Shown here one piece after another: positions 51,923-55,779 of a stretch of 64,000 bases of DNA. A program made the position numbers and the translations under genes. Source of the DNA: an uncultured PS1 clade bacterium (lineage in GTDB: Bacteria > Pseudomonadota > Alphaproteobacteria > RS24); NCBI GenBank assembly GCA_902624095.1, contig CACNWB010000003.1, forward strand, positions 1-64,000. The letters run 5' to 3'. A model generated the notes under the pieces. That model saw only the letters and a list, made by a program, of their open reading frames with translations, was not told the origin of the DNA and searched no databases. The number at the start of each line of letters is the position of its first letter. The first letter of the stretch is position 1.

Positions 51923-52846
51923 ATGAAAAAGCTTGACTGGGACGACTTGCGCTTCTTCTTGGCTGTAGCTGCAGCAGGTAGCCTGTCTGCAGCCGCACGC
52001 GAGTTGGGCGTCAACACCACAACTGCCTTGCGGCGCATTGCCAGTCTGGAAGAGGCATTGCAGGCGCGCTTGTTTGAACGCCTGCGTTCGGGCTATGCAC
52101 TCACCCAAGAAGGTACCCGCCTGATGGAGACGTTAGAGCCCGTTGATCAACGTTTGACCTCGTTATCGCGCGATTTTCAGGCAGGCGCCACCTCACTGCA
52201 GGGCACGGTCAGATTGGGTGCCAGTGATATTATTGCCAGCGGTTTTGTAGCTCCGTCTTTAGGCCGGTTTCGCGCCGAAAAGCCCGATATTGCGCTGGAT
52301 GTTGTCACCGACCCAAGCCTTACTGGGCCGGGCGCCGCCCCACGGGTTTTAAACGCCCTGCGCGATGTCGATTTGGCCCTGCGGCTGGCGCGCCCCACAC
52401 AGGGCGACATGCTGGTGCGTAAGTTGGGCGATGTGGCCTACGGGCTTTATGCCACACCGTCTTACATTGAACGCTTTGGCACGGTGCCGATTAGCGGCGA
52501 TTTGAGCGGCCATCAGATTGTTGGATTTTCGCCCGATGACCGCCCCTTGGGGCCCGTCTGGTGGTTATCGCGCGCCGAGCGTAATGCCCGTGTGATCATG
52601 CGCTCGTCAAATGCGGCTGTTAGGCTGGGCACCGCAATGGCAGATGAGGCGCTCGCCGCCTTGCCTTGTTTTGAGGCGGATCGACTGTCGGGGCTTGAGC
52701 GCATAGCCGGTCCCGATCTAATCGGCGGCTTAGAGTTGTGGTTGCTGACGCGTTCCGATCTGGCCCAGCTCGGTCATGTGCGCGCAGTGATGGATTTTTT
52801 GGTCGGGGAAGTCAAGGCGCGAATGACTGAGTTGTTGGGGCGGTGA
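51923..52846 (+). CDS. LysR-family transcriptional regulator
   Basis: A 307-residue regulator. The N-terminal winged helix-turn-helix is DDLRFFLAVAAAGSLSAAARELGV to about residue 60, with LARLFERL-like end (ALQARLFERLRSGYALT). The rest is a periplasmic-binding-like sensor domain (about 90-300). Ligand and targets are unknown. It lies between ilvC and leuA on the same strand, so a link with branched-chain amino acid control is possible, but the neighbours alone do not show it. Confidence 0.9.
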   Translation: MKKLDWDDLRFFLAVAAAGSLSAAARELGVNTTTALRRIASLEEALQARLFERLRSGYALTQEGTRLMETLEPVDQRLTSLSRDFQAGATSLQGTVRLGASDIIASGFVAPSLGRFRAEKPDIALDVVTDPSLTGPGAAPRVLNALRDVDLALRLARPTQGDMLVRKLGDVAYGLYATPSYIERFGTVPISGDLSGHQIVGFSPDDRPLGPVWWLSRAERNARVIMRSSNAAVRLGTAMADEALAALPCFEADRLSGLERIAGPDLIGGLELWLLTRSDLAQLGHVRAVMDFLVGEVKARMTELLGR

Positions 52847-52934
52847 TCTTGTTGAATTTGCTTGCTTCTCGGGCCGCGCTTAGATAAACAGATAGAGGTT
52901 AATACCAAAGCAAATACAGGTAGTGCGAAACTAA

Positions 52935-53054
52935 ATGGCATATATGGGTAACACGATGATGCAATGGGGCTTGCAGGCGCAACAGCGCAATGTGGCATGC
53001 CTGCCCGCACGCGTGAAAACCGATCTGGAAATCCTTCTCCTTATGTGCCCCTGA
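52935..53054 (+). CDS. Putative leuA leader peptide
   Basis: An ORF of 39 codons too short for the track: it begins ATG GCA TAT ATG and ends with GAT CTG GAA ATC CTT CTC CTT ATG TGC CCC TGA, so the C-terminus reads DLEILLLMCP. Four Leu and one Ile fall within six codons near the end. The start is uncertain; later in-frame starts at 52944, 52956, 52959 or GTG 53013 (MKTDLEILLLMCP) are possible and none has a strong ribosome binding site. The stop lies inside the first arm of the hairpin that follows. Confidence 0.55.
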   Translation: MAYMGNTMMQWGLQAQQRNVACLPARVKTDLEILLLMCP

Positions 53055-53141
53055 GACCGGACATTCGATGCAATGGCGCGTTCTCAGGGGATTAAAAAAA
53101 GAGATTAATCTATCCGGAAAGACCCGGGCTTTGAGAAGGAT
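53031..53141 (+). promoter_or_regulatory. Candidate leucine-responsive translational attenuator of leuA
   Basis: ATCCTTCTC (53031-53039), the Ile-Leu-Leu codons of the leader, is the exact reverse complement of GAGAAGGAT (53133-53141), which contains the leuA ribosome binding site seven bases before its ATG. Between the two lies a perfect 9-bp stem CCCCTGAGA (53048-53056) / TCTCAGGGG (53082-53090). No T run follows, so a transcription terminator is unlikely. A ribosome stalled at the Leu codons would cover the 5' partner and free the leuA site. Confidence 0.55.
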
Positions 53142-53147
53142 AAACAC

Positions 53148-55779
<2,632 letters not shown>

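Follow-up and report, generated by a model that had tools for sequence, protein, structure and literature searches.

A Leu-rich leader ORF and a stop-holding hairpin upstream of leuA in Alphaproteobacteria: a candidate leucine-responsive translational control element

In Alphaproteobacteria, a widely conserved and leuA-specific element, consisting of a short Leu-rich leader ORF and a hairpin (P2), lies directly upstream of leuA. It was analysed computationally, starting from a 64,000-nucleotide stretch of DNA of an uncultured PS1 clade bacterium (the window). The analysis identified the leader, its Leu codons, P2, a complementarity (P1) between leader codons and the leuA Shine-Dalgarno sequence (SD), a cross-lineage matching of leader and SD, and a predicted release of the SD by a leader-bound ribosome. 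The leader is probably a cis-acting, leucine-responsive element that controls leuA mainly at translation initiation, through leucyl-tRNA shortage.

Leader ORF and hairpin P2

The gene order in the window is ilv large and small subunits, ilvC, a LysR-type regulator, a gap, and leuA, which was identified by the LeuA motif DTTLRDGEQ and by the relatives compared. The following features were assigned:

51923-52846: LysR-type regulator gene, upstream of the gap before leuA
52861-52889, + strand: promoter-like block CTTGC-N17-GATAAAC (sequence comparison with family leaders)
52935-53054, + strand: leader ORF of 39 aa, MAYMGNTMMQWGLQAQQRNVACLPARVKTDLEILLLMCP followed by the stop, ending ILLLMCP (ORF list and comparison)
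53031-53039, + strand: 5' strand of P1 (anti-SD), codons ATC CTT CTC, ATCCTTCTC (exact complement and MFE fold)
53034-53042, + strand: regulatory Leu codons CTT CTC CTT, codons -6, -5 and -4 before the stop (leader alignment)
53048-53056, + strand: 5' arm of P2, CCCCTGAGA, holding the leader stop TGA at 53052-53054 (covariation)
53082-53090, + strand: 3' arm of P2, TCTCAGGGG (covariation and match to model R1)
53113-53128, + strand: small hairpin P3, TCCGG/CCCGG, between P2 and the SD (MFE fold)
53133-53141, + strand: 3' strand of P1, GAGAAGGAT, containing the leuA SD (exact complement and MFE fold)
53148-54746, + strand: leuA, 2-isopropylmalate synthase, 532 aa, ATG at 53148 (ORF)

The promoter-like pattern was present in 14 of the 18 family leaders listed, with a similar spacing to the leader ORF. 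A generic sigma-70 scan did not pick up the block at 52861-52889, so it is a putative promoter on the strength of conservation only. Conservation of P3 beyond the genus was not seen, so far as we looked. The ilv genes at 48 kb, inspected by eye, had no similar Leu-rich leader. Elsewhere in the same genome, a weak second TIGR00970 (leuA_yeast) match was found in a 566-codon open frame (G000:C12:19238-20185).

The preliminary description of this locus, made from the window's sequence, had placed the Ile-Leu-Leu codons (53031-53039) and their complement (53133-53141) at coordinates that proved right to the base. The Ile-Leu-Leu-Leu codons, ATC CTT CTC CTT, occupy 53031-53042. Loci L003 and L004 share the start and the 39-aa length of the window's leader. 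Among 177 unique leaders, codon -4, the fourth before the stop, was Leu in all (CTT in 162, CTA in 15), codon -6 was Leu in 164, with all four CTN codons used, and codon -5 was Leu in 114 and Arg in 62. Third-base variation at codons -4 and -6 was synonymous. The N-terminus of the leader showed no conservation, and the Leu codons near the stop were invariant. Synonymous change with the residues kept fixed argues that the leader is translated. CTT made up 56% of the regulatory Leu codons in leaders vs. 8.8% in leuA genes; hungry-codon sensitivity, rather than pairing, could be the cause of the preference for CTT and CTC. Where codon -5 was Arg, it was CGA 61 times and CGG once, while CGA accounts for approximately 5% of Arg codons in leuA, and CTTCGACTTA was nearly fixed in these leaders. 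This near-fixation suggests either that the RNA is constrained here or that a slow codon is used on purpose.

P2 is a strongly covarying helix. In an alignment of 45 divergent copies, 95.6% of cells were paired, and 40 cells had changed on both sides compared to 13.9 ± 3.5 in shuffles, none of 500 shuffles being as high. The leader stop alternates between TGA, TAG, and TAA, with the opposite arm of P2 changing to match. A perfect 9-bp hairpin with the stop in its first arm, here placed at 53048-53056/53082-53090, had already been noted and was regarded as a spacer; it turned out to be the best-conserved structural part of the element. A search of Rfam gave no match at or near the gathering score: the one hit in the window was unrelated and below threshold, and outside it a tRNA came up. 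The leader with P2 is not an Rfam family.

Regions upstream of leuA were compared for 80 named loci and 30 relatives, and a Leu-rich ORF with its stop in the 5' arm of P2 was present in approximately 88 of 108. A covariance model, R1, matched the window at 53026-53094 (E 1.9e-12) and nowhere else in it. Among 385 genomes sampled from the class, 124 had a match to R1, in almost every case a single one, and a LeuA start was present in 130 of the 137 loci fetched with it. In a phylum-wide sample, all of the matches listed belonged to the same class.

Two loci were unusual. Upstream of leuA in L017 (G008), the leader and P2 were lost, a natural deletion of the regulatory leader, and a promoter-like block, CTTGC...CTAAAT, stood no more than a few bases upstream of the leuA ATG; the leuA mRNA is possibly leaderless there. 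In L021/L046 (IMCC14465), the interval between P2 and leuA contained about three tandem 'CCCGGCAT-GGGCTAAATTG' hairpin units, where close relatives have one.

Predicted pairing between leader codons and the leuA SD

As first described, ATCCTTCTC is the exact reverse complement of GAGAAGGAT, and the MFE fold of the window leader contains both P1 and P2. Compared with dinucleotide shuffles, the folding energy gave z = -1.8 and -2.2, so the fold of the window is only modest on folding energy alone. To weigh the match itself, 263 ORF start regions were sampled from 14 stretches of 20 kb of the same genome. A perfect complement of at least 9 bases to the Leu-codon core was found in one other start region, leuA ranking second, whereas by duplex energy with the Leu codons 12 of the 263 were as good as or better than leuA. 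The preliminary estimate of a chance below one percent is therefore fair for perfect length and does not hold for duplex energy. Other SDs pair equally well because the pyrimidine-rich Leu codons resemble an anti-SD, and any test of P1 must allow for this. When the six codons of the Leu region were compared with synonymous recodings, their pairing with the SD gave p 0.010 in the window, and 0 or 1 of 30 shuffled leaders locked the SD as well. The duplex with a broad 40-nt leader segment was no better than shuffled (p 0.43).

P1 was kept, nearly invariant, in the genus of the window and in two other genera of its family (12 distinct sequences); nearly all members of these three genera had it, mostly with 8-10 contiguous pairs, G-U allowed. 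Pair counting within the family found no compensatory (both-side) change in P1, and the family therefore neither proves nor disproves the pairing. Fixed Leu codons facing a fixed SD could be the source of this conservation. In g2 (L018) and in the sister genus g3 (L019-L023), the pairing of Leu codons with the SD was largely lost. Some folds of g3 leaders paired the leader segments GTCATC and TAATC with the start codon of leuA and the bases flanking it; these alternative duplexes in L018 and L019-L023 were weak and not above shuffled (p 0.15-0.84). Relatives that keep leuA and lose the leader or its complementarity had been named beforehand as evidence against a switch. Such losses did occur in g2 and g3 and, for the entire leader, in L017, and count in part against the switch as first described; three genera retain P1.

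Several statistics were tried for leader/SD matching across lineages, with SD and start positions assigned by rule. The first, plain duplex energies of own vs. swapped pairs (-11.9 vs. -9.9), was rejected: an upstream control segment showed an equal excess, so that the comparison was confounded by base composition or by the upstream pairing that some lineages show. Core-conditioned, dinucleotide, and synonymous nulls were used in its place. Beyond the CCTTC/GAAGG core, where leader and SD both have it, the flanks added 2.73 base pairs in own leader/SD combinations vs. 1.96 in swapped ones (22 lineages, p 0.0009), and beyond CTT/AAG by 2.99 vs. 2.24 (84 lineages; 0 of 10,000 permutations as high); the same test was null on three control segments. 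Compensated examples of P1 are GGTCCTTC:GAAGGACC in L065, TGGTCCTTCG:CGAAGGACCA in L185, and TCCCTTC:GAAGGGA in L182. Pairing of the leader with the leuA initiation region exceeded that of dinucleotide-shuffled leaders (34 divergent lineages, Fisher p 5e-7; two control segments null, 0.76 and 0.29) and of synonymous recodings (110 lineages, Fisher p 4e-15), and the six Leu-region codons against the SD gave Fisher p 9.5e-9 over the same 110 lineages; since the lineages are not fully independent, these pooled values are optimistic. Pooled over many lineages, the results support a leader/SD complementarity in excess of SD core, composition, and codon choice.

Individually, the Leu codons paired significantly with the SD in only 22 of the 110 lineages, and several lineages were near p = 1. 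In L027, L090, L093, L094, L096, L099, L103, and L107, the SD had its partner in the leader stretch immediately before the Leu codons, which themselves paired with bases lying between P2 and the SD. In some other lineages, no clear SD partner was found in the leader. Co-variation of Leu codons and SD had been proposed as a check of the switch: within the family no double changes were found, and the support comes from the leader/SD matching across pooled lineages.

Predicted SD release and alternative explanations

The cost of opening the SD was computed by folding with a ribosome footprint of 31 nt, its A-site placed on a given codon. By folding only, the leuA SD of the window is predicted to be sequestered in free RNA and released by a leader-stalled ribosome: the cost fell from 6.5 kcal/mol to 1.4 kcal/mol when the A-site was set on either of the first two Leu codons, and was 2.4 kcal/mol on the third and 5.0 kcal/mol on the stop. 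A ribosome further upstream left it unchanged at 6.5 kcal/mol. Over 110 lineages, the mean cost was 5.07 in free RNA, 2.79 with the ribosome on the first Leu codon, and 4.52 with the ribosome upstream (p 1.8e-6). An earlier ribosome mask that also covered P2 left the SD of the window locked (6.2 kcal/mol), because the freed 3' arm of P2, TTCTC, can pair with GAGAA; it was replaced by the realistic footprint. When the ribosome sits on the first Leu codon, P2 starts just past its footprint and can therefore stay folded during a stall.

On this basis, we propose the following course of events. With leucyl-tRNA plentiful, the ribosome would finish the leader at the stop within P2 and leave; P2 would then form, the Ile-Leu-Leu codons would pair with the leuA SD as P1, and leuA would be off. 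With leucyl-tRNA scarce, the ribosome would stall on the Leu codons and cover the 5' strand of P1, P2 would just clear its downstream edge, the SD would stay open, and leuA would be translated. The likely role of P2 would be to compact the rest of the leader and to bring the Leu codons to the SD after the ribosome departs. We infer that the leader is translated, that ribosomes stall on it, and that leuA responds to leucine; the controlled step would be translation, either in place of Rho-dependent termination or alongside it. The switch logic outlined in the preliminary description agrees with the predicted release of the SD; its assignment of the Leu codons as the SD partner does not extend to all lineages.

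Transcription attenuation at an intrinsic terminator was rejected because a T-run is missing. No intrinsic terminator was found in the window before leuA, in line with the T run reported missing at the outset, and 103 of 110 lineages had no T-run after P2. A different transcriptional route for a response of leuA to leucine is conceivable: P2 might act as a pause site or belong to a terminator, Rho-dependent or atypical, and the Leu codons might pair with the SD incidentally, since they are rich in pyrimidines and it is rich in purines. The most conserved structure is indeed P2 and not P1, the leader and P2 are kept in many lineages without this pairing, 12 of the 263 SDs sampled pair as stably with the window's Leu codons, and Rho has been proposed for actinobacterial leaders without a terminator (PMC1262725). 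The missing T-runs and terminator speak against such a route, as does a complementarity that reaches beyond the SD core where the controls are null, and we regard it as rather doubtful.

It is still less likely that the leader and P2 are functional and the 9-base match in this genome is a chance one, with P1 unused. Anti-SD-like Leu codons will match any SD, the P1 pairs mostly never vary within the family, and the broad-segment shuffle test was negative; against this stand the second rank of leuA by perfect length, the contiguous pairs in nearly all members of three genera, and the results with synonymous recodings and shuffled leaders in the window. Support of leuA expression by reinitiation or general coupling, with no leucine switch, is very improbable: reinitiation at leaders has been proposed in general (PMC4833913), but leader stop and leuA start are approximately 75-180 nt apart, far above the described peak of 10-13 nt, and the invariant residues are the stop-proximal Leu codons, not the N-terminus. 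Translational control by the stalled leader ribosome remains our preferred reading. Whether it amounts to an undescribed class-wide RNA element seems to us evenly balanced; in such an element, the Leu codons, or the codons just before them, would serve as the anti-SD strand and co-evolve with the leuA SD, the register would shift between lineages, and a fixed stop-holding hairpin would lie at the edge of the stalled ribosome.

Relation to known leaders and significance

In the classical enteric leuL attenuator, a Leu-rich leader peptide upstream of leuA senses leucyl-tRNA by ribosome stalling. The alphaproteobacterial leuA element likewise has a Leu-rich leader peptide; unlike leuL, it showed no U-run terminator or antiterminator, and its predicted target is the SD. 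In ermC-type translational attenuators, a ribosome stalled by a drug releases the SD from sequestration. Here too a stalled leader ribosome is predicted to open the SD of the next gene; the signal would be leucyl-tRNA shortage instead of a drug, and the sensing codons themselves would be the anti-SD strand.

The nearest known counterpart is the LEU element that precedes leuA in Actinobacteria; for it, Seliverstov et al. (2005; PMC1262725) proposed a base stem between the Leu run and the SD, enclosing a pseudoknot or an alternative hairpin. The use of Leu codons against the SD is thus not the distinct design that it had been taken for. The authors favoured a protein-binding site because mutations of the Leu codons in Streptomyces did not fit attenuation (PMC1262725). 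Both elements have a short Leu-run leader ORF directly upstream of leuA and no intrinsic terminator, and the base stem of Leu run and SD is shared by the window genome and the three genera, but fails in L018 and L019-L023. Unlike the LEU element, ours has a simple long hairpin holding the leader stop (MFE folds cannot show pseudoknots) and belongs to a different phylum. The S. lividans leader is MRFGLLLLSCRGEGL (PMC8079986), and the actinobacterial LeuL1 has LLLLSCRGEGL; LLLLSC is common to the S. lividans leader and many alphaproteobacterial leaders (LLLLLSCP before the stop), that is, to two phyla.

Within the same class, attenuators of amino acid operons have been predicted (Vitreschak 2004, as cited in PMC10117765), and the Caulobacter ilvBN leader was described with a rho-independent terminator (PMC4117421). 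The leuA leader resembles these in the proposed control of branched-chain amino acid genes by a leader peptide and differs from ilvBN in having no rho-independent terminator. In a literature search with most subscription papers outside its scope, no alphaproteobacterial leuA leader was found; Vitreschak 2004 or Lopatovskaya 2010 could mention one. The design has a precedent and is not shared by all lineages.

The usual teaching on leader peptides of amino acid genes is that they attenuate transcription by way of a terminator. The terminator-less leuA leader spans a large part of one bacterial class and is absent from Rfam. It offers a clean test of translational attenuation, since the sensing codon and the anti-SD strand would be the same nucleotides. 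This shared-nucleotide constraint predicts the codon choice of the leader (CTT 56% vs. 9% in leuA) and would mean that a peptide, a set of codons, and a ribosome binding site some distance away evolve in a coupled manner. The alphaproteobacterial leaders may also serve as an independent lineage in which the mechanism of the actinobacterial LEU element can be revisited.
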